Below the pieces are notes generated by a model. That model did not search any database. It had not been told where the DNA came from and saw only the letters and a list, made by a program, of their open reading frames with translations. The translations under genes were made by a program, and so were the position numbers. Below, piece after piece: positions 34,720 to 44,004 of a DNA stretch of 64,000 nucleotides (the stretch's first letter is position 1; each line of letters begins with the position of its first letter). The stretch is from Candidatus Hydrogenedentota bacterium. GTDB taxonomy: Bacteria; Hydrogenedentota; Hydrogenedentia; Hydrogenedentales; JAGMZX01. Location: the NCBI GenBank assembly GCA_029556545.1, contig JAKQEQ010000017.1, positions 1 to 64,000 of the forward strand, in the 5' to 3' direction.

Positions 34720-36516
34720 CTACGGCCTCTCGACGGTGTACATGTCGAACACGTTGCCGTCCCTGTCCAGCGCATCGAGCACGACGCGGGCCTCCTCGAT
34801 ACGGAAGCGCACGTACAACGCAACGCCGGGCTTCTTCATGACGGCGGCGTAATCCGGCTTGGGCGGCATGGCGCCGCCGTCATCGAGCGAAATGGTGATC
34901 AGGTAAGTCGTGCCCTCCGCCGGCGACGCCACACACTCCCCGCCCCGCATCGGGTGGGATCGCATGTACGTGTGGACGTGCCCCGCGAGGGCGAAATCCA
35001 CATGGTGCCGGTCAAGGACCGGAATCCAGGCCTCGCGAATCGCCGCCTCGCTGTCCTCGGGGAAATAGGGCGGGAAGTGCATGACCGCGAAATTCCATTT
35101 CGCGGAGGTTTGCTCGAGTTGCGCGTCGATCCACGACGTCTGCGCGGCAATCGGCTCGGTCACGTCCATCATGAGAAAGATCGCATTCCCGTACTCGAAG
35201 GCGTAGGTGCGCTGCGGCGCGAGCGACGCCGGGCCGTTCTCCGGCAACTCGAAATGGGCCAGGTACAGGTCCGCGCCGAGCCCGTCGATGGCATCGTGAT
35301 TTCCTATGGACGGCATCACTGGCCGCCGCGCCATGAACGGCGCGCCGTACGCGAAGAAATTGTCCCAGTCGTCGCGGTATTGGCCGGTGCCCACAAGGTC
35401 GCCGGAGATTAGCGCGAACGCGGCGTCCGGGTCCCGCGCGAGCGCGGCATCGAGCAACGCTCCGGCGGCGGGCGAGTTATGCGTGTCGCTCAGAAAGAAG
35501 AACGTGAACGGTTCAGGCGTCGCGGGCGCGGTCTGAAACGTCGCCGCGTCGCTGATCCGCTCCGATTCGGGGTCGCCGACGCGATAGGCATACGCCGTCC
35601 CCGGCTTCAAGCCGCTGAGCGTCGCCGTGAAGCGGTGCACGCGCCGCTCATTGATAATCAACGGGTCGTCGAGGGCCCGCATCGACGCGACGACCTCGGA
35701 CCACGGCGCGTCCGCCGCCGCGTCCGCCTCGCGATAGCACACGAACCCGCGTTCCGTGGAGGGACTCGTCCGCCATTGCACCGCCATGCTCGTGCGTGGA
35801 TCGCCGTTCCACGTGAGCAGCACTTGATCCGGGTCCGCCGCGGACGGGAACGCTGTCTCGCGGAACGCGCCGATCAGATGGGCCTCCCGCGCGCGGCCCC
35901 GGATGGTCGGCAGGAGCGCCTGCCCCTCGAGGGCTTCCGGGACCTCGGACAACACGAGTTCGGGCCAATCATGATAGATGCTCGCACCCACGCCCATTTC
36001 GAAGACCTGCTGGTCCTCGGGGACGAAGTTGGTCAGTTCGAGGCGGGCGTCGGGGTCTTGCGCGCCCACGGACACGAAGTAATGCGGCCGGTGCTTGTCG
36101 AAGCCATTGATCCCGAGACCCACCGATCCCGCGTCATAGGCCCGTTGCCACACTTCATAGGTCGTGTACTCGTTGCGCACGACCAAATCCGCCTTCGCGA
36201 AACCCGCCCCCTCGAGCCAGAACGGCAACGCCGTCTGATTCGCATCGCGCATCACGGACACCACAACGGGCACGTTGACGTCGAAACGCCAGTATTCCGA
36301 GGCCAGGGAGCGCAATTCCGCCGGTTTCACGAACGGGCGCAGCGTTTCCTCCGTCAGCCCGCGCAGTTCCTCCGGCGTGAACGCCTCCGTCAGCCGCCCC
36401 GCAATGGCTGACACCGTCGATTCGATCGGCGACGTCCCCTGCGCGACGCTTACAAGCAACGCCGCGACGCCGAGCAGTGTTATGCGCGATAACCAAGAAA
36501 TCGGTTTGACCTTCAT
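34720..36516 (-). CDS. Secreted purple-acid-phosphatase-like metallophosphoesterase
   Basis: 598 aa. Signal peptide (LSRITLLGVAALLVSVAQG), an unassigned N-terminal part, a fibronectin-like purple acid phosphatase N-domain (LTWNGDPRTSMAVQWRT) and a calcineurin-like catalytic domain with FFFLSDTHN, ALISGDLVG, PSIGNHDAI, FAVMHFPPY and ALAGHVHTY: the ordered metal-binding D-x-H, G-D, G-N-H-D, H and G-H-x-H blocks. It hydrolyses phosphate esters outside the cytoplasm. ATG at 36516 follows GGAGGAAAG. It is divergent from the peptide genes. Confidence 0.88.
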   Translation of the reverse strand: MKVKPISWLSRITLLGVAALLVSVAQGTSPIESTVSAIAGRLTEAFTPEELRGLTEETLRPFVKPAELRSLASEYWRFDVNVPVVVSVMRDANQTALPFWLEGAGFAKADLVVRNEYTTYEVWQRAYDAGSVGLGINGFDKHRPHYFVSVGAQDPDARLELTNFVPEDQQVFEMGVGASIYHDWPELVLSEVPEALEGQALLPTIRGRAREAHLIGAFRETAFPSAADPDQVLLTWNGDPRTSMAVQWRTSPSTERGFVCYREADAAADAPWSEVVASMRALDDPLIINERRVHRFTATLSGLKPGTAYAYRVGDPESERISDAATFQTAPATPEPFTFFFLSDTHNSPAAGALLDAALARDPDAAFALISGDLVGTGQYRDDWDNFFAYGAPFMARRPVMPSIGNHDAIDGLGADLYLAHFELPENGPASLAPQRTYAFEYGNAIFLMMDVTEPIAAQTSWIDAQLEQTSAKWNFAVMHFPPYFPEDSEAAIREAWIPVLDRHHVDFALAGHVHTYMRSHPMRGGECVASPAEGTTYLITISLDDGGAMPPKPDYAAVMKKPGVALYVRFRIEEARVVLDALDRDGNVFDMYTVERP

Positions 36517-36694
36517 CTCTTTCCTCCGGGTGTTTCCCGCAATGATAACGTCCCGCGCCTGCGGAGTCATCCCTGCGGTGTAACGCGGGCCACAGCTTCT
36601 GGTACACTGGATAACGGTAGCTGGTCCCTTACGGCCGTCGCCGCGAGGCTCGGAATGGCCGGAAAGAGCGCCGGCCGGGAGTAGGGAACGAAGT

Positions 36695-36835
36695 ATGATA
36701 CATGTAAAGACCATATCTATACAGTGGGACTATCTGGAGCAACCGACGCTGGGCCAGATTTTGTCGGTGGTCGCCCGCATGTTCACCATCGTGGGCACGT
36801 CCCTGGTGTCGAAAGAGGCGGAAGAGTCGGAATGA
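36695..36835 (+). CDS. Small precursor-like peptide 1, 46 aa
   Basis: The sequence starts MIHVKTIS, then has TLGQILSVVARMFTIVGTSL and SKEAEESE. The middle closely matches peptide 2 (GQI-[LI]-x-V-V-A-x-[ML]-x-T-[IV]-V), which shows that both are real genes and not chance frames. The lysine at 40 followed by Glu aligns with a K-[EN] pair in all five peptides. No cysteine. The gene stands about 300 bases before the other four; the AGGGAACGAAGT stretch before its ATG gives a usable ribosome site. Its own promoter is not obvious. Function unknown; a modified-peptide precursor is inferred from the downstream enzymes. Confidence 0.72.
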   Translation: MIHVKTISIQWDYLEQPTLGQILSVVARMFTIVGTSLVSKEAEESE

Positions 36836-37082
36836 CCCCGATATGCGCCCTGCACGCCGCCGCCGTGCGGTCAGAGCAAGGTCCATATCGTCTATGTCGT
36901 CCATACCGTCCTTACCCTCTTCGCGCCCGCCGCGGGTAGCCACAAGGAACTTCTTGGAGAACCGCGAGATCAAATAGCGCGCCGGAGATACTCGGCCAGA
37001 CACCGGTTGCACCCGCGTGGCAAGCCGCGCAAGTGCCCGGCGCTGTTGAAGTTATAAACCGTTGCACAAGGCGGCGAACTCA
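36836..37082. other. Intergenic stretch between peptides 1 and 2
   Basis: No gene is supported here. Positions 36881-36919 hold GTCCATATCGTC-type imperfect repeats (CGTCCATACCGTCC) that recur at 54550-54584 on the same strand. The remainder leads into the strong promoter at 37083. Confidence 0.55.
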
Positions 37083-37111
37083 TTGACTGACGGTATAGCC
37101 GGTGCTATACT
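37083..37111 (+). promoter_or_regulatory. Strong promoter with a perfect inverted repeat, start of the main peptide operon
   Basis: TTGACT (37083-37088), a 17-base spacer and TATACT (37106-37111) form a near-consensus sigma70 promoter. Inside it, GTATAGC-CGGT-GCTATAC (37093-37110) is a perfect inverted repeat that covers the spacer and five bases of the -10 box, a likely repressor operator. The expected transcript start is near 37118, 30 bases before peptide 2. Confidence 0.75.
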
Positions 37112-37147
37112 GCCGACGACATAGACCAAGGAGTCGGAAGGAACCCC

Positions 37148-37288
37148 ATGAAACACCTTGCGATCATTTCAGCGCGTCCGCGGCGAGCCTCACTAAACGC
37201 CACGCCCGGACAGATCATCGCGGTCGTGGCGCAGTTGATGACGGTCGTCGCGACGGCGCTTCTGGCCAAAGAAGGTACTACCGGCTGA
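37148..37288 (+). CDS. Small precursor-like peptide 2, 46 aa
   Basis: Begins MKHLAIISARPRRAS, then TPGQIIAVVAQLMTVVATAL and AKEGTTG. It shares the hydrophobic helix with peptide 1 and the N-terminal M-K-H-[LV]-x-x-[IV]-S motif with peptides 3 and 5. Lys41-Glu matches the conserved K-[EN] position. GGAGTCGGAAGG lies just upstream of the ATG. It is the first gene after the strong promoter at 37083 and so would be the most strongly expressed. Confidence 0.78.
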   Translation: MKHLAIISARPRRASLNATPGQIIAVVAQLMTVVATALLAKEGTTG

Positions 37289-37384
37289 ACGTTACGGTGC
37301 TGGCGCACTCCACAGGGTGTAAGGTATGCCCGACGTACCCTGCAACCGGCGGGTGTCCCGGCGGATGAATCGGGGACAGAAGTC

Positions 37385-37567
37385 ATGAAACACGTTGTGT
37401 CTGTATCGCGAACGCCTGCGGCCGCCTCCTCCGACCTGTGTACCAATCCCACGAGCGACCTGCAGGTCAAGCTCTGCTTCTTGTCAACGGTCCTGACCGG
37501 CTTCTTCGTTCCGGTCCTGGAGATCAAGAACTCGGTTCAACAGGACGACAACACGGACGCCGCCTAG
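37385..37567 (+). CDS. Small precursor-like peptide 3, 60 aa
   Basis: Begins MKHVVSVSRTPAAAS, has a hydrophobic block VKLCFLSTVLTGFFVPVLEI and ends KNSVQQDDNTDAA. The N-terminal motif agrees with peptides 2 and 5, and the R-x-P-A-x-A-S extension with peptide 4. The V-K-L-x-F start of the hydrophobic block is shared with peptide 4. Lys48-Asn is the conserved pair. Two cysteines (residues 19 and 31) are not conserved in the family, so they are unlikely to be the common modification site. Confidence 0.75.
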   Translation: MKHVVSVSRTPAAASSDLCTNPTSDLQVKLCFLSTVLTGFFVPVLEIKNSVQQDDNTDAA

Positions 37568-37606
37568 CCGCCCCGAGCGGCCGCAGTGGTCCAAGGAAGA
37601 CCCGTC

Positions 37607-37774
37607 ATGCAAAGGATACATCCGGTAACCCGCCTGCCGGCAGGCGCTTCCAACATTCCGCCGGAGGTCAAGCTGACGTTTGCGCGGGACCTTATCGAGA
37701 TTAGTATCCCGCTGTTTGAGAATAAGAACCCGAGCAATCCGTTGCCCGATACGGGCGGCGGGGATACAACGTGA
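37607..37774 (+). CDS. Small precursor-like peptide 4, 55 aa
   Basis: Begins MQRIHPVTRLPAGAS, continues EVKLTFARDLIEISIPLFEN and ends KNPSNPLPDTGGGDTT. The N-terminal block fits the family pattern (M-x-[HR]-[LVI]-x-x-[IV]-[ST]-x-x-P-A-x-A-S), and V-K-L-x-F is shared with peptide 3. Lys40-Asn is the conserved pair, followed by a Gly/Asp/Thr-rich tail. AAGGAAG seven bases before the ATG fixes the start, rejecting a GTG at 37586. Confidence 0.77.
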   Translation: MQRIHPVTRLPAGASNIPPEVKLTFARDLIEISIPLFENKNPSNPLPDTGGGDTT

Positions 37775-37874
37775 TTACGCGCCGCCTGGGGGTCCTGGCA
37801 TGCGCGAGACCCGCTCGAGGCGAAAGACAGTGTGTCGACCTGGATTCGGTAACGCGACGGTGTGGAGTAAGCTT

Positions 37875-37994
37875 ATGAGGCATTTGCGCACGATTTCGAT
37901 GGCGCCCGCGGACGCTTTCAACGACTTCATGAACGCGCTCTGGCGCGCGTGGCAAGATTTCCGGTACGAAAAGAACCGCGAAATCACGTTCTAG
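37875..37994 (+). CDS. Small precursor-like peptide 5, 39 aa
   Basis: Begins MRHLRTISMAPADAF and continues NDFMNALWRAWQDFRYE, ending KNREITF. It keeps the N-terminal motif (M-[KR]-H-L-x-x-I-S-x-x-P-A-x-A) and the Lys33-Asn pair but has an aromatic, Trp-rich core instead of the Val/Ala-rich helix. The ribosome site is weak (TGGAGTAAGCTT upstream). It is the last small gene before the enzymes. Confidence 0.7.
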   Translation: MRHLRTISMAPADAFNDFMNALWRAWQDFRYEKNREITF

Positions 37995-38040
37995 CGCGTG
38001 CGCGAGCCGCTTCCGCCCTGATCACCGGGCGGGCCGCCAT

Positions 38041-38066
38041 TCGGGTCCAGCTATCTGGATCCCCGA
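38041..38066 (+). promoter_or_regulatory. Hairpin between peptide genes and enzyme genes
   Basis: TCGGGTCCAG-CTAT-CTGGATCCCCGA can fold into a 10-bp stem with a two-base bulge. It lies 46 bases after peptide 5 and 120 bases before the first enzyme. No T-run follows directly (a seven-T run occurs near 38144), so partial termination or RNA processing is more likely than a full stop. Confidence 0.45.
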
Positions 38067-38185
38067 AAGGAATTCGCTGACCGTCTGAGAGTGACATCAA
38101 GCGCTTGTGTCGTTCTGCGTGCTTATTTGTTCTTGTGCGTCTTTTTTTGGGCGTTAGCGTCGCAGCGCCGCTGTCGAGGGGCCTC

Positions 38186-38704
38186 ATGATTCAAACACCC
38201 CATGGCTATATCCGCGCCGCTGAGCGGGAGGACGCACCAGCCTTGGCGCGGTTATACGATCCCGAGTATCCCCGTGCCGCGCTGCTCGACGCGAAGCGCG
38301 AGCCGATCATGCCCACGGAGGACGAAGTGCGCGAGTTGCTTTCGCGCAAGGAGGTCCAGCAGGGCGTGCTGTACGCCGTCGAGGATACGGCGGGCGTCGT
38401 GTGCGGGTTTTGCAGTGTGCGCGGCGTGAATCCTGAAGCGGGTTTCGGCGAAACCTCCCTGCTGTTCCTCGCGGACGCAACTTACGAGACGCCGCTGGCG
38501 GAAGACGCGCTGGGTTTCGTCCTCGAACGCGCCTTCGAGCGGCAGCGCCTGCGGAAGCTGCTCGCGAACGGTCTCGATGGTGAGACCGCGCTAAAGCAGT
38601 TTCTCCTCGGGCACGGATTCGAGAGCAGCGGCGTCCAGCGGAACGCGCTATACTCGTTGGGACAATGGCATAACCTCGAAGTATTCACCCGGTTCGCCGG
38701 GTAA
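38186..38704 (+). CDS. GNAT-family acyltransferase 1 of the peptide locus
   Basis: 172 aa. The GNAT fold is recognised from GYIRAAEREDAPALARLYDP at the start, VLYAVEDTAGVVCGFCSVRG (strands β2-β4), an acyl-CoA-binding-like region around LAEDALGFVLERAFERQRLRK and LKQFLLGHGFESSGVQRNAL at the end. It would transfer an acyl group from a CoA thioester to an amine. Its position right after five tandem small peptides suggests that they are substrates (inference). ATG at 38186 follows GAGGGG; an upstream GTG adds an unsupported hydrophobic stretch. Confidence 0.72.
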   Translation: MIQTPHGYIRAAEREDAPALARLYDPEYPRAALLDAKREPIMPTEDEVRELLSRKEVQQGVLYAVEDTAGVVCGFCSVRGVNPEAGFGETSLLFLADATYETPLAEDALGFVLERAFERQRLRKLLANGLDGETALKQFLLGHGFESSGVQRNALYSLGQWHNLEVFTRFAG

Positions 38705-38770
38705 GCGTTCGTTTCCGCACAACGGCGGGCGAGTACGAGTACGCGAACAAACACGAAATAAGGGCCGAGA

Positions 38771-39418
38771 ATGCCTCCTTCGTTGACTTCCTTCATTCGG
38801 CGCGCGGACCGTGATGATCTCGACACGATCGTCGGGTGGGTCGAGGACCCGGATTTCGCGCGCTTTCTCTACGGCGACCCGGCGCGGTCGCCGCGGCAGG
38901 TCCGCGAGCAGATTGTGTCCATGCTGGGCCGTACCGCGGGCCACACGATGCCGGGCGGTATTTACCTCATGATCGACTCGAAGGAACACGGCCCCATCGG
39001 GTTGTTGTCGCTCCAGCACATCAGTTGGCGCAACCGCTGCTGCTCGGTCGACTTCTACATCGGCAAGAAGGAACTGCGCAACGGCATCGTCGCCGGCATG
39101 GCCGCCTATCGCACCCTCGAGTACTGCTTCGACGAACTGAACCTGCACCGGGTCCAGGCGTACATCTACGCCTTCAACCGCGCGTCGTGGCGGCTGCTCG
39201 AGATGACCGGCGCGGTGCGCGAGTTGACACTGCGCGAACACGTGTCCCGCGACGGCAAACTGTACGACGTTTACGGCTACGGGCTTTTGCGACACGAATT
39301 CGAGGTGTTTCGCGAGCGCGTGGGCCGCATGCGGGGCGTGTCGCTGCAGGACATGGTCCGCGCGCTCGAGGAGGCGGCGCCCGAGGGCGGCGGCGCAGGC
39401 GCGGAGTCCAGCGCGTGA
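38771..39418 (+). CDS. GNAT-family acyltransferase 2 of the peptide locus (RimJ/RimL-like)
   Basis: 215 aa. SFIRRADRDDLDTIVGWVED, GPIGLLSLQHISWRNRCCSVDFYIG and FDELNLHRVQAYIYAFNRASWRLLE match the RimJ/RimL branch of GNATs, which acetylate protein N-termini or antibiotics. The usual Q/R-x-x-G-x-G/A loop is represented by LRNGIVAGMAAYRTL. The C-terminal ~35 residues are an extra, Gly/Ala-rich tail. The stop overlaps the next gene's GTG (GTGA), so the downstream protease is translationally coupled. Confidence 0.8.
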   Translation: MPPSLTSFIRRADRDDLDTIVGWVEDPDFARFLYGDPARSPRQVREQIVSMLGRTAGHTMPGGIYLMIDSKEHGPIGLLSLQHISWRNRCCSVDFYIGKKELRNGIVAGMAAYRTLEYCFDELNLHRVQAYIYAFNRASWRLLEMTGAVRELTLREHVSRDGKLYDVYGYGLLRHEFEVFRERVGRMRGVSLQDMVRALEEAAPEGGGAGAESSA

Positions 39419-40176
39419 AGGCGCTGTTCTGGACCTTGCTGTTCCTCTACACGGGCGTGTCGGTGTGGCGGCACGTCCGCGGCGGGGCCGCGGCGCCGCG
39501 TCCGGACCGGTTCCGCGCACTGGGGCTGCAAACGCCGCTGCTTGCCGTCGCGCTCTGGATCGCGGTCGAGCGCGGCGCGCTTTCGCGCGACCTTTTGTCG
39601 CCCTGGGGCATCGCCGCGGGGTTTGCCTGCGGCTATCTGATACACGCGGCGTCGTTGATGGTGACCAACGCCACGAAGGATCTGCGCGGCATCTTGCGCG
39701 CGCTGCGGGTCTACTTCTTCGGGAAATCCCGACGCGGGGCCGTCTTCGCCGACCAGCCCGGTCCGATGTTCGCGCTCTTCCAGAATAGCGTAGTCGAGGA
39801 GGTCATCTTCCGTGCGGTGGCGCAAACGTTGCTGATCGCGGCGACAGGCCGCGTCGGATGGTCCGTCCTCGCGGTGGCGGTCCTGTTTTCGCTGGGTCAC
39901 GAGCACTTTCTGCGGCGCCCCCGCATCGAGTCCATCGAATTTCTCGGCTATGCGGTGGCGCTCGGCGCGTTGTACTATTGGACGGGCAGCCTGATTCTCG
40001 TTATCGTGGCGCATACGGTCCGTAATTTTGAGTTGCAGTACCAGCAGCACCTTATCCGGATCGATGCCGCGCGGCGGCGCAAGCGGGCCGTGATCCTGCG
40101 GGTCCGACGCCGGTCGCGCGTCGCGCGGTCGTGGAATCGCGGCGAACGAACCCTGAGGTTATGGGCACACACATGA
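39415..40176 (+). CDS. CPBP (CAAX-type Rce1-like) membrane protease
   Basis: 253 aa, about six membrane helices. The three CPBP motifs are intact: EEVIFR (Glu128, Glu129, Arg133), F-SLG-H (Phe158, His162) and H-TVR-N (His200, Asn204). This family includes intramembrane glutamic-type proteases that cut prenylated proteins, and relatives that mature or confer immunity to bacteriocins. Between acyltransferases and an ABC exporter, it is a good candidate for removing the peptides' leader or protecting the cell. The GTG start at 39415 overlaps the GNAT stop by four bases, and its own stop overlaps the next ATG by four bases. Confidence 0.85.
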   Translation: MKALFWTLLFLYTGVSVWRHVRGGAAAPRPDRFRALGLQTPLLAVALWIAVERGALSRDLLSPWGIAAGFACGYLIHAASLMVTNATKDLRGILRALRVYFFGKSRRGAVFADQPGPMFALFQNSVVEEVIFRAVAQTLLIAATGRVGWSVLAVAVLFSLGHEHFLRRPRIESIEFLGYAVALGALYYWTGSLILVIVAHTVRNFELQYQQHLIRIDAARRRKRAVILRVRRRSRVARSWNRGERTLRLWAHT

Positions 40177-41225
40177 GCGCACAGCCCCTGGTGGAACTTG
40201 ATCACGTCGCCAAGACGTTTTACACGCGGCATTTCCTCCATCTGGACGAGGAAACGCGCCGGCGGCGGCTCTATGCCCGGCGCACCGTTCACGCCGCGCG
40301 CGACATCAGCTTCACGATTCAGCCGGGGGAGGTCTTCGGGCTCCTCGGACCGAACGGCGCCGGCAAGACGACGGCGGTCAAGATGATCTCGGGCTTGGTG
40401 CGGCCCGACGGCGGCGCGGTCTACGTGGACGGGCTCGACGTCGAACGGCGTCGCCGGCAGGTGCTGCGGCAGATCGGCGTCGTGCTCGAGGGCACCCGCA
40501 CCAGCATCTGGCCGCTTACGCCGCTCGAGAACCTCGCGTATTACGGCAACCTGAAGGACGTGCGCGGCGCGGAACTCAAGGACCGTTCGCATCGGCTCCT
40601 CGATTTCATCGGGCTGCGGGACAAGAAGAATGTGCAGGTGCGCCGCCTGTCGCGCGGTGAAAAACAGAAACTTGCCATTTGCATCGCCCTTATCGCTGAC
40701 CCGCGCATCATTCTTCTCGATGAACCGACCACCGGCCTCGATGTCCAGAGCAGCCGCGCCATTAAGGACCGCATCCTCGAAATGACGCGCGAACTGGGCA
40801 AGTGCGTGCTCGTGACGACCCACGACATGGCCGTGGCGCAGGAACTGTGCGACCGCATCGGTATCATCAACAAGGGCGAACTGGTCACGTGCCGCCCAAC
40901 GGCGGAACTGCTGGACCTGTTCTCGGAGCAGATATTCGCGTTCAAGCTCGATCGCGCCCCGGCGGCGGCGGAGTTCCAGGACATGCCGGGCGTGATCGCG
41001 GTCGAAGCGGAAAACGGTGAGGAGGGCCCCGCGCTCGCGCTGACCGTGGTGCGCGAAGCCGCCGGACGTTCCGAAGCCCTCTACGAAGTCATCGCGCGCC
41101 TGCGCCGGGGCGGCTATCAACTGCGCTCGATAAACCAGCGGCAGCAGACACTCGAAAACGTGTTCCTGCAATTGACCACGGACTTGCGGGAGTCCCCCGC
41201 GCCGTCCGGGAGAGAAACGAAGTGA
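40173..41225 (+). CDS. ABC transporter ATP-binding protein of the peptide locus
   Basis: 350 aa. Walker A GLLGPNGAGKTTAV, a degenerate signature LSRGEKQKLA, Walker B IILLDEPTTGLD and switch His in VTTHDM are present. An N-terminal insert (FLHLDEETRRRRLYARR) and a ~100-residue C-terminal extension set it apart from simple drug exporters and resemble CcmA/multidrug ABC-2 ATPases. It overlaps the protease gene (ATGA) and the permease gene (GTGA), so ATPase and permease are made as a pair. Probable role: exporting the modified peptide or providing immunity. Confidence 0.9.
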   Translation: MSAQPLVELDHVAKTFYTRHFLHLDEETRRRRLYARRTVHAARDISFTIQPGEVFGLLGPNGAGKTTAVKMISGLVRPDGGAVYVDGLDVERRRRQVLRQIGVVLEGTRTSIWPLTPLENLAYYGNLKDVRGAELKDRSHRLLDFIGLRDKKNVQVRRLSRGEKQKLAICIALIADPRIILLDEPTTGLDVQSSRAIKDRILEMTRELGKCVLVTTHDMAVAQELCDRIGIINKGELVTCRPTAELLDLFSEQIFAFKLDRAPAAAEFQDMPGVIAVEAENGEEGPALALTVVREAAGRSEALYEVIARLRRGGYQLRSINQRQQTLENVFLQLTTDLRESPAPSGRETK

Positions 41226-42136
41226 GAGGATTCTTCCTCGTACTCAAGGCGGAAATTGTGCGCTCGTGGATCATCACGCGGCGCTATTGGTTCCGCACGT
41301 TGACCGGCATCATCGTAGGCTACGGTATGCTCATGGCGCTGATTATCGGGTTCATGTCGCGCGGCGGCATGGACGCGGTGGCGCCCGCGGACGCGCCGCC
41401 GACCACGGTTGTCACGGAACAGGCTGCCCCGCCGCCGGGCGTGCCGGGGGGATTGGTCAGCGACCCCACCAAGGCCACGCGCTACGTGCTGGGGTTCATC
41501 ATCGGGTTGTTCGCCTTCGGCATCGTCGGCCTGTTCACGCAGGGGCTGCAAGGCATGGCGCAGATGGGCGTTCTCGAGCAGCTCTGCCTGAGTCCGCACG
41601 GCCTCGTGACCAATTTCCTCGCGCGGTCCGTCGTGGGCGGGGTCAACACCATCTTTTCCTCCGGGATCATGCTGTGGCTGATCACGTGGACCCTGCGCGG
41701 CACCCTCTATTGGGATTGGGTCGCCGCGCCCGTGCTTCTCGCGCTCACGTTCATCAACCTGCTCGGCTTCGGCTTCATGGTGGGCGGCCTCGTGCTTGTC
41801 TTCAAGCAGACGGGCCAGTTGGCGATCATCGTGCGACTCGTATTGTTTGGGCTTGCGCTCTTCGCCGAGGAGGGGCTGCTGCACGGGCACTGGCTCATGA
41901 CCGCGTTCCTCCACATGCTCCCCGTCACCGATGCCGCCATCTGCCTCAAATACGTGTTCATCCAGGGCCAGGGTGTGGCCACGGGAGGGCCGGTCACGTC
42001 GGTCTTCGCCTTTGAAGCGCCATATTGTTTCTATTTCCTGATCCTCAATTGCGTCGTGTGGACGGGGCTGGGCATCGTGTGCTTCAAGGTCATGGAGAAC
42101 CATAGCCGCCACAAGGGCACACTGGGGGCTTACTGA
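41222..42136 (+). CDS. ABC-2-type transporter permease of the peptide locus
   Basis: 304 aa with about six transmembrane helices: IVRSWIITRRYWFRTLTGII at the start, VLGFIIGLFAFGIVGLFTQG, LLALTFINLLGFGFMVGGLV, IVRLVLFGLALFAEEGLLHG and a final helix near CFYFLILNCVVWTGLGIVCF. It is the membrane partner of the ATPase encoded just upstream (GTGA overlap). The stop overlaps the ATG of the next gene in TGATG, linking the exporter to the pseudo-radical-SAM/GNAT protein. Confidence 0.87.
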   Translation: MRGFFLVLKAEIVRSWIITRRYWFRTLTGIIVGYGMLMALIIGFMSRGGMDAVAPADAPPTTVVTEQAAPPPGVPGGLVSDPTKATRYVLGFIIGLFAFGIVGLFTQGLQGMAQMGVLEQLCLSPHGLVTNFLARSVVGGVNTIFSSGIMLWLITWTLRGTLYWDWVAAPVLLALTFINLLGFGFMVGGLVLVFKQTGQLAIIVRLVLFGLALFAEEGLLHGHWLMTAFLHMLPVTDAAICLKYVFIQGQGVATGGPVTSVFAFEAPYCFYFLILNCVVWTGLGIVCFKVMENHSRHKGTLGAY

Positions 42137-44004
42137 TGGCGGCTCCGGCGCTCCATCGCTTCACCCACGGCGACAGCCGTTATGCGGTCGATCCCGAGTC
42201 GTGCTTCTGCTTCGAGTGCGATAAGGTTTCGTGGGACGTGATCGAGCACTATCCGCACGCCACCCCGAACCATATCGCTCACCAACTGCGCGACCGGCAC
42301 GACCCGAGGGTGGTCGGCGAGGTAATCAGCGAACTCGAATGGCTGCGCGCGACGAAGGCCATCCTGAAGTCGCCGGGACGGGAGGAATTCATCAAGCGCT
42401 TCGAGATCGAGCGCGGCGCGAAGCTGCTCACGCTGCGCCTCGGCGAGACGCCGCCGCGCCCCGAACTCATCCGCGACGCGGCGACGTTGTTGCTGGCGCG
42501 TTCGGCGGCGCAACAGGAACTTCGTCTCGTCGTCGAAGTCCCGCCCGCCGGATTCGCCGCGTCGCCGCTGGCGGAGGCCTGCGGGGAGGCGCTGCGGTTG
42601 GGCGCGCTCGCGGGGAAGCAACTGACCGTGGCCGTGCGCGTGGGGCCCTTGCCGCTCCGGGAGGCGGGGCCGCTTCAAGGGCATGGCTGCGCCATGCAAC
42701 TCGAACTGCGCGCGGGCGCGTCCGTCGCGGCGTCGCTCGAAAAGCTGGCGAAGTCGGGGCTTGATAGGCTAGGCCGCCTCGTCAAGGCCTTTGGCACCGA
42801 GAACGACGCCGTGACGGGGCGCATCATTCTGTCGCCCGGCGCGGCCTCGTTCGCGGATGCGGTCGCGGCTCTGGACAAGACCGGGTTCCCGGTAATCGAG
42901 ATTGATCTCGATGCGCTCTTCGCCGCGCTGCCGGGCGCCACCCCCGCGGCGGTCTTCGATGAACTGCGCCGCGCCGCCGTGTACTACGCGAATCGCCTGC
43001 TCGAGGGCCGCTACTTCCGCCTTGACCCCATCGCCCCGCTATTCCTCCGCATCTACCAGGGCGAACCCGTGCGGCGCACGGACCCCGTCGGGACCAATGA
43101 ACTCGCGGTGGATGCCTCGGGGGGAGTGTATCCGTCGCGACTCTGGATGGGCAACCCTGCCTTCCGCGCGGGAATCCTCGAAGAAGGCCGGCTGGACGAA
43201 GCCCTGCTGAAACGATTTGACGACGTGGGCGCGGTCACGACGCCGGCCTGTATGCGCTGTTGGGCGCGCGGTTTATGCGGCGGCGGCGTGGCGGCGGTGC
43301 ATCACGCGCTGTCGGGCAACTTCCGCTTGCCGCATGCGCCCTGGTGCGACGCGCAGCGCGCGTGGCTCGAGGCGGCGGTGGCCGCGTTCAATCTGCTGGC
43401 CGCGCGCGGCGTTCATTTCACGCGCATCTACCAGAACCTCGGGCGCGCGGGCCGTCCCTCGCTGTTTCAACTGGCGCGGGCGGCGTTCGGCGCACGGGTC
43501 GGCGTGCGTCCTCTCGAGGAGGGTGACGCGGAACTGCTGACCCGCTGGGAAAACTGGAACGAAGCCGCATATTTCCTCTGCACCGAATCGGGCATGTTCA
43601 TGGCGACGCGCTATGATCGTGAAATGGATTCCCTGTATCCGCGCGATTACGAGCGCGAATTCATGCTCCTGCGCAAGACCGGCGCGCCCATCGGCCTGAT
43701 GCGCGTGCGACCCGATCGCATCCCGCGGACTGCCCGCGCGTGGCTTTACCTCCGCGACCAGGCCGATTATGCGGACCGATCCGTGCACCGCGGGCTCCGC
43801 CACATTCTCGAGGAGGCCGCGAAACAAACCGCCGAAGGCGGACTGCGCCGCATTACCGTCCCGGTCAGCCCGAGCGAGGACGCCCTCGCCGGCTTTCTTG
43901 ATGCCCTCGGCTTCCAGCGCGAAGGCGTCGAGCGCGAGGCCCTGTACCTTCATGGCCGTTACCACGATGTGCGCATTTACGCATTGAATCTCGACACGCC
44001 GTGA
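42136..44004 (+). CDS. Degenerate radical SAM/SPASM peptide-maturase-like protein fused to a GNAT domain
   Basis: 622 aa. Residues ~1-85 (LHRFTHGDSRYAVDPESCFC ... DKVSWDVIEHY) resemble the N-terminal peptide-binding region of SCIFF-type SPASM maturases. Residues ~95-330 correspond to the radical SAM barrel, but the CxxxCxxC loop is absent: strand 1 reads KLLTLRLGETPPR with no cysteine. Residues ~325-410 keep SPASM features (LAVDASGGVYPS, VTTPACMRCWARGLCGGG with Cys372/375/381, PWCDAQR with Cys404), although Y-P-C is Y-P-S at 334 and CGGGC is CGGGV. Residues 456-622 are a GNAT domain (GVRPLEEGDAELLTRW ... FLDALGFQREGVERE). I infer a peptide-binding scaffold that presents precursors to acyltransferase activity. 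Confidence 0.8.
   Translation: MAAPALHRFTHGDSRYAVDPESCFCFECDKVSWDVIEHYPHATPNHIAHQLRDRHDPRVVGEVISELEWLRATKAILKSPGREEFIKRFEIERGAKLLTLRLGETPPRPELIRDAATLLLARSAAQQELRLVVEVPPAGFAASPLAEACGEALRLGALAGKQLTVAVRVGPLPLREAGPLQGHGCAMQLELRAGASVAASLEKLAKSGLDRLGRLVKAFGTENDAVTGRIILSPGAASFADAVAALDKTGFPVIEIDLDALFAALPGATPAAVFDELRRAAVYYANRLLEGRYFRLDPIAPLFLRIYQGEPVRRTDPVGTNELAVDASGGVYPSRLWMGNPAFRAGILEEGRLDEALLKRFDDVGAVTTPACMRCWARGLCGGGVAAVHHALSGNFRLPHAPWCDAQRAWLEAAVAAFNLLAARGVHFTRIYQNLGRAGRPSLFQLARAAFGARVGVRPLEEGDAELLTRWENWNEAAYFLCTESGMFMATRYDREMDSLYPRDYEREFMLLRKTGAPIGLMRVRPDRIPRTARAWLYLRDQADYADRSVHRGLRHILEEAAKQTAEGGLRRITVPVSPSEDALAGFLDALGFQREGVEREALYLHGRYHDVRIYALNLDTP

Follow-up and report, generated by a model that had tools for sequence, protein, structure and literature searches.

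A candidate leader-guided peptide maturation and export locus, nearly universal in Hydrogenedentota, with a CteB-related fusion protein that lacks the radical-SAM cysteine motif

What do five tandem small peptides do when they are encoded ahead of three GNAT domains, a CPBP membrane protease and an ABC exporter? The question is raised by a locus at positions 36695-44004 of the first 64,000 nucleotides (hereafter, the window) of contig JAKQEQ010000017.1 from a Candidatus Hydrogenedentota bacterium (assembly GCA_029556545.1). A preliminary description of the window had proposed an undescribed system of peptide precursors, a protease and an exporter that includes a fusion of a pseudo-radical S-adenosylmethionine (SAM) enzyme with a GNAT domain, and our analysis supports that proposal. 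The locus is real, conserved and apparently undescribed, and we give an even chance to the reading that it encodes a leader-guided peptide maturation and export pathway derived from SCIFF/CteB, with the radical chemistry lost. The parts, their conservation and co-occurrence, the descent of the fusion protein and a universal lysine in the peptides can all be read from sequence. The preliminary description missed the SCIFF/CteB descent, the retained leader-binding domain and auxiliary cluster site, the lysine and the near-universal distribution in the phylum.

Distribution across Hydrogenedentota

Of 68 Hydrogenedentota genomes, 62 encode the fusion protein (54 of 60 relatives in a first set). 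In a scan of 84,980 GTDB species, which requires one of two short conserved patterns, full-length relatives came almost only from records titled Hydrogenedentota, the others being a few titled "uncultured bacterium" and one titled "Nitrospiraceae" (L125, apparently genome G054, which groups in Hydrogenedentota). Outside the phylum this pattern scan gave no full-length relative of the fusion, and its matches were confined to the SPASM region of ordinary radical-SAM proteins. Order and strand of the six large genes are constant across 36 loci and across 13 others cut off by contig ends; the sole exception (L023) lies near a contig end.

The expectation that short tag-bearing reading frames recur beside the fusion gene held in 20 relatives, where tblastn placed peptide orthologues 5' of GNAT1, with their order unchanged wherever more than one turned up; it failed in several genomes of one family, where the peptides are not adjacent. 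One subclade carries the enzyme genes directly after mnmE with no peptide genes between. Enzyme loci without peptide genes, which the preliminary description held would tell against it, thus do exist; the objection was overturned when a pep5 profile search located peptides at separate loci in these mnmE-type genomes (G027, G035, G038, G043, G045, G051 and G057). Unlinked peptide loci in three genomes (L104, L105 and L106) adjoin a glucan phosphorylase-like gene, and prepilin-like genes lie near L106 and L110. Part of one family (L025, L026, L035 and L038) has a second GNAT2-like gene between GNAT1 and GNAT2.

With a strong pep5 match set at a profile E value below 1e-10, fusion and pep5 occur together in 48 of 60 genomes, the fusion only in 6, neither in 6 and pep5 alone in none. 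For this co-occurrence the naive Fisher value is 1.8e-5; five of the six negatives, however, belong to one family, and the genomes lacking both perhaps record only two independent losses.

One leader on several conserved cores

A wider collection, assembled by means of the leader pattern, contained 143 distinct peptides with a common N-terminal tag; that pattern played no part in obtaining the matches from tblastn or the pep5 profile. The leader consensus is M-K-H-[ILV]-x-x-[IV]-[ST], mostly followed by PxxA, and, except for 12, the cores belong to one of four types (pep1/2, pep3, pep4 and pep5). The combination of a conserved leader and a variable core that marks ribosomally synthesized and post-translationally modified peptides (RiPPs) is found here as one N-terminus on four core types, within a set selected by leader. 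The motif said to be shared by the small genes was thus borne out across the peptides, with only a loose fit in the case of pep4.

All five peptides are under purifying selection: rough ratios of nonsynonymous to synonymous substitution rates (dN/dS; Nei-Gojobori, near pairs) were 0.12 for pep1, 0.17 for pep2, 0.13 for pep3, 0.13 for pep4 and 0.06 for pep5, well away from the value near 1 that had been named as grounds for abandoning the proposal. The corresponding ratio of proportions (pN/pS) was below 1 in every peptide pair compared. Orthology and dN/dS together rule out chance small open reading frames as the identity of the peptide frames. The most conserved of the five, pep5, has profile matches in most genomes of the phylum, and the L022 orthologue of pep1 is 55% identical. 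In a pep5 homologue of L036, 18 extra residues are inserted precisely where tag and core meet, which suggests that leader and core are separate modules. No peptide has a relevant Pfam or NCBIfam match, even at E 10 (pep5 was scanned against NCBIfam only), in agreement with the earlier remark that Nif11/NHLP leaders are lacking, and one peptide, searched against the PDB, had no meaningful match.

Single tag-bearing peptides also occur far from the operon (L116:1998, plus strand; L117 and L118, minus strand; for example MKHLKRITLQQAQAKDGEEIIFFQLYFTVLAFMISAALGDK), those of L116 and L117 belonging to the window's own genome; such orphans were sampled through profile hits only.

A relative of the SCIFF maturase without the radical-SAM cysteines

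The AlphaFold model of the fusion (18 orthologues) has a mean predicted local distance difference test score of 84 and a predicted template modeling score of 0.70. Among PDB folds it matches best with CteB, the maturase that forms the thioethers of SCIFF peptides (E 3.7e-18; target TM-score 0.66-0.68), and next with GNATs such as RimL and SpeG. In a profile search, fusion residues 4-418 align with CteB over 415 positions (E 8.9e-44), and the CNLRCKYC stretch of CteB appears there as an insertion that is absent from the fusion. The CxxxCxxC motif occurs in 0 of 46 fusion orthologues, as expected from the earlier claim that no active radical-SAM enzyme is encoded inside the unit, and none is present. 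The cysteines of auxiliary cluster I (Aux I) in CteB, found in TGC, YPC and GGC, are replaced in the window's fusion. Four others, C372, C375 and C381 (CxxCx5C) and the distal C404, are invariant in the fusion alignment; going by the anSME structure, we take these to be the Aux II ligands. The RRE-like domain of the fusion (RRE, RiPP recognition element) also has an FCxEC motif (window 42205-42219) that is invariant across orthologues, absent from CteB, and possibly an extra metal or disulfide site.

In CteB, residues 1-21 of CteA dock on the RRE as a beta strand, and an open cluster contacts a substrate cysteine (PMC8326336). By alignment and model, the leader recognition element expected of a RiPP pathway would be supplied here by the RRE-like domain, and the locus does have the CteB-homologous maturase with an N-terminal RRE that is typical of SCIFF/ranthipeptide systems. 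The alignments indicate that the fusion descends from CteB. Its leader-binding domain is still there, as are all four Aux II cysteines of SPASM, and the disappearance of the Aux I ligands fits lost thioether chemistry. SCIFF peptides from Syntrophomonas relatives start with M[KN]KHI.T[IV] or MKHI.T[IV]. An offset-tolerant pattern, M.?[KR]H[ILMV]..[IVLM], was used (gapless scoring failed for SCIFF leaders starting with MKKH) and matched 15 of 15 SCIFFs and 110 of the 143 peptides, compared with 11 of 28,790 other open-frame starts (0.04%). This likeness, together with the maturase alignment, suggests that the leader/RRE pair was inherited from a SCIFF-like ancestor.

Genome G008 encodes an intact SCIFF/QhpD-like radical-SAM maturase followed by a 428-amino-acid Cys/Asp-repeat protein (L206:1390-4163; repeat units such as CxNDxCxxDSSGxC) that has the look of a large substrate for multiple thioethers. 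No tag-bearing peptide lies beside the intact enzyme in this genome.

An invariant lysine and degenerate acyltransferase loops

A lysine after residue 20 is present in 143 of 143 peptides, although lysine was not a selection criterion. It is invariant in the alignment of each type (pep1/2, 34/34; pep3, 21/21; pep4, 28/28; pep5, 48/48; 131/131 overall), sits after the core helix in every type and is, besides Met1, the only position invariant across all four. The next residue is E, N or D in 77% of peptides, versus 22% after shuffling. Each of the two cysteines of the pep3 type is kept in 20 of 21 sequences.

By sequence and fold (PDB matches to SpeG), GNAT2 is nearest to polyamine and ribosomal-protein acetyltransferases, enzymes that act on primary amines. 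Acylation of the lysine is plausible because of its invariance and the SpeG/RimL-like fold. The motif by which GNATs bind acyl coenzyme A (CoA) in their P-loop is [Q/R]xxGx[G/A] (PMC13060382). This motif is absent at the loop site of all three GNAT domains, across orthologues: GNAT2 keeps R103 in 34 of 35 sequences, but position 106 is nearly always bulky and the loop glycine is lost, and there is no glycine pattern at the loop of GNAT1 or the fusion GNAT. Acylation as the main modification, as first proposed, is therefore not established.

The missing loop makes catalysis uncertain and turns a purely peptide-holding role into a serious rival. The same leader-guided processing and export would then run without acylation, with the GNAT folds as pseudo-enzymes that hold a sticky amphipathic helix and proteolysis by CPBP as the sole chemistry. 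The loss of the glycine from every GNAT domain fits such a role, as do the radical-SAM part of the fusion, already a pseudo-enzyme by its missing cysteines, and the intact CPBP protein; yet catalysis is suggested by GNAT2, one of the best-conserved proteins and rich in invariant polar residues, and no peptide type varies at the core lysine. On balance we consider this alternative somewhat unlikely. The intact motifs reported earlier for CPBP are indeed there, beside its family match (Table 1): E128, E129, R133, F158, H162, H200 and R203 occur in 34 of 34 orthologues, in EExxxR, FxxxH and HxxxN/R-type motifs. The permease has no PDB sequence match and, taken alone, the window protein has no family match; among its orthologues, 14 of 28 match ABC2_membrane_3 (PF12698) and one matches PF01061.

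Gene layout and flanking sequence

The five small and six large genes all lie on the plus strand in the order and at the positions first reported (Table 1), and the overlaps read exactly as described: the stop of GNAT2 overlaps the start of CPBP in GTGA (39415-39418), ATGA (40173-40176) is common to the CPBP and ABC ATPase genes, GTGA (41222-41225) to the ATPase and permease genes, and TGATG (42134-42138) joins the permease and fusion genes. The flanking genes are ordinary (purple acid phosphatase-like, xylose isomerase-like and PdxJ) and thus mark the borders of the cassette. A promoter consensus scan of the region found 2 candidates versus 0.5 expected, and no Rfam RNA was found within 36400-38300.

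Table 1. Positions of genes, domains and a candidate promoter of the locus in the window.
Feature	Position	Strand	Characteristics and basis
pep1, putative precursor peptide 1 (46 amino acids)	36695-36835	+	Leader MIHVKTIS, hydrophobic helix then K40-E; open reading frame, L022 orthologue
Sigma-70-like promoter candidate	37083-37111	+	TTGACT-17-TATACT with TG, 5' of pep2; consensus scan, weak evidence
pep2, putative precursor peptide 2 (46 amino acids)	37148-37288	+	Leader MKHLAIIS, GQI helix then KE; open reading frame, orthologues
pep3, putative precursor peptide 3 (60 amino acids)	37385-37567	+	Leader MKHVVSVS, two conserved Cys, then K; open reading frame, orthologues
pep4, putative precursor peptide 4 (55 amino acids)	37607-37774	+	Leader MQRIHPVT, PEVKLT and NKNP motifs; open reading frame, orthologues
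pep5, putative precursor peptide 5 (39 amino acids)	37875-37994	+	Leader MRHLRTIS, aromatic amphipathic helix; NALWRAWQDFRYEK
GNAT1, stand-alone GNAT domain, kin of the fusion's GNAT	38186-38704	+	PF13420, 8.1e-9; CoA loop degenerate
GNAT2, highly conserved, SpeG/RimJ/RimL-like	38771-39418	+	PF13302, 1.6e-17; SpeG matches in PDB
CPBP (Rce1-like) intramembrane protease	39415-40176	+	PF02517, 8.3e-12; catalytic residues intact
DrrA-like ABC exporter ATPase	40173-41225	+	Start ATG 40173; TIGR01188, 4.1e-71; PF00005
ABC-2 type permease	41222-42136	+	Assigned through orthologue matches to PF12698 and PF01061
Pseudo-radical-SAM/SPASM-GNAT fusion protein (622 amino acids)	42136-44004	+	Homology, model, fold match
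RRE-like N-terminal domain of fusion, residues 5-75	42148-42360	+	Invariant FCxEC; aligns with CteB RRE (residues 4-75), winged-helix-like secondary structure in model
Degenerate radical-SAM barrel of fusion, residues ~80-310	42373-43065	+	CxxxCxxC deleted; alignment to CteB
Half-SPASM domain of fusion	43087-43365	+	C372, C375, C381 and C404 kept, Aux I ligands lost; alignments
C-terminal GNAT domain of fusion, residues 454-620	43495-43995	+	PF13420, 1.9e-5; RimL/SpeG fold matches

Proposed pathway and alternatives

In the pathway we propose, the N-terminal tag of the precursor, MKH[I/L/V]xx[I/V][S/T]xxPxxA, would bind the RRE of the fusion, which, with its one remaining SPASM [4Fe-4S] site and its GNAT domain, would serve as a docking scaffold and place the helical core before the GNATs. 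The invariant lysine after the helix would be modified, most likely by N-epsilon-acylation with GNAT2 as the likeliest catalyst; afterwards the CPBP protease may cut off the leader or trim the peptide within the membrane, and the processed peptide would then leave through the ABC-2 transporter. Binding of the leader by the RRE, acylation, the site and order of proteolysis, and export are steps that we infer. Rather than a weapon, the exported product is probably a signal with a housekeeping role or a component of the envelope. A fuller version, to which we give somewhat less than an even chance, is a ribosomal peptide system that defines the phylum and is near-universal in it. Its radical-SAM maturase would have turned into a scaffold without radical chemistry that retains one Fe-S site and has gained an acyltransferase domain; this scaffold would guide several amphipathic peptides to modification at one universal lysine, and to export as such a signal or component.

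Several points weigh against this pathway. The leader was itself a selection criterion for the pooled 143 peptides, its resemblance to SCIFF leaders is short, and the 15 SCIFFs compared are one family. Synonymous divergence is high, near saturation in the pairs used, leaving the dN/dS values rough. A lysine after a hydrophobic helix could be a mere membrane-boundary residue, and with the P-loop motif gone CoA binding and acylation may have been lost. Six fusion-positive genomes lack a strong pep5 match, perhaps from fragmented metagenome-assembled genomes.

The peptides might alternatively be small membrane or envelope proteins that merely share the operon while the enzymes act on something else, which would suit the subclade whose peptides are encoded apart from the enzymes, next to a glucan phosphorylase-like gene; membrane peptides, too, commonly have a lysine behind a hydrophobic helix. 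We think this improbable, given one N-terminal tag on otherwise unlike cores, the L036 insertion between tag and core, the orphan tag-bearing peptides elsewhere in the same genome, the homology of the fusion RRE to that of CteB, and the lack of any fusion-less genome with a strong pep5 match. Antagonistic peptides are usually patchy in distribution and diversifying. A multicomponent system of bacteriocins, with CPBP and ABC proteins for export and self-protection, would account for small amphipathic or hydrophobic peptides beside a CPBP protein and an ABC-2 exporter, a parts list like that of the Bacillus subtilis skf operon (PMC8172795), but it is very improbable: nearly every member of the phylum has the system, in roughly one copy per genome, and each peptide, core included, is under strong purifying selection.

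Relation to known systems and significance

The maturation and export pathway proposed here has its closest counterpart in the SCIFF/ranthipeptide system (CteA-CteB; TIGR03973/TIGR03974), with which it shares a short precursor with a KHIxx[I/V] leader, a maturase built of RRE, barrel and SPASM domains, and near-universality in a large clade, which in Clostridia is taken as an argument against an antimicrobial role. SCIFF is widespread in Clostridia and reported to be involved in quorum sensing (PMC8326336). In contrast to SCIFFs, the Hydrogenedentota peptides lack the six-cysteine core and have no NCBIfam SCIFF match, with two conserved cysteines only in the pep3 type; the fusion has lost CxxxCxxC and the Aux I ligands and gained a GNAT domain; and there are several peptide types, with CPBP and an ABC-2 exporter in the operon.

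The selidamides and nostolysamides, which are GNAT-acylated RiPPs, likewise combine GNAT genes with precursors and an exporter and have lysine as a possible acyl acceptor, but here there is no Nif11/NHLP leader (no Pfam or NCBIfam match) and no C39 peptidase transporter, the CoA loop is not conserved, and the pseudo-radical-SAM fusion is added. The sporulation killing factor operon skfABCEF resembles the locus in its precursor, RRE/radical-SAM-type protein, putative protease and ABC exporter, SkfC being a CPBP protein; it differs in that SkfB is an active radical-SAM enzyme, the product is a killing factor and GNATs are missing. SpeG, RimJ and RimL share a fold and weak sequence similarity with GNAT2 and the fusion C terminus, whereas the CoA pyrophosphate loop is eroded here and the operon context differs. 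As judged from these comparisons, the system appears to work like a RiPP pathway and is neither a ranthipeptide (no active radical SAM, no six-cysteine core) nor a selidamide (no Nif11/NHLP leader, no P-loop) system. Judged by title and abstract, none of the papers searched that pair Hydrogenedentes with RiPP, or Hydrogenedentota with biosynthetic gene cluster, seems to describe such a system, and the one Hydrogenedentota phylum paper searched leaves RiPPs unmentioned.

RiPP maturases are found by the signatures of active radical-SAM or other enzymes, by which a pseudo-radical-SAM pathway would be missed. The locus offers a clear case in which a peptide maturase has lost its catalytic cluster but apparently still recognises its substrate, and its short peptides lend themselves to testing. 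Moreover, almost every member of a phylum known chiefly through metagenomes carries it, and peptide-based physiology in that phylum is, as far as we found, unstudied.

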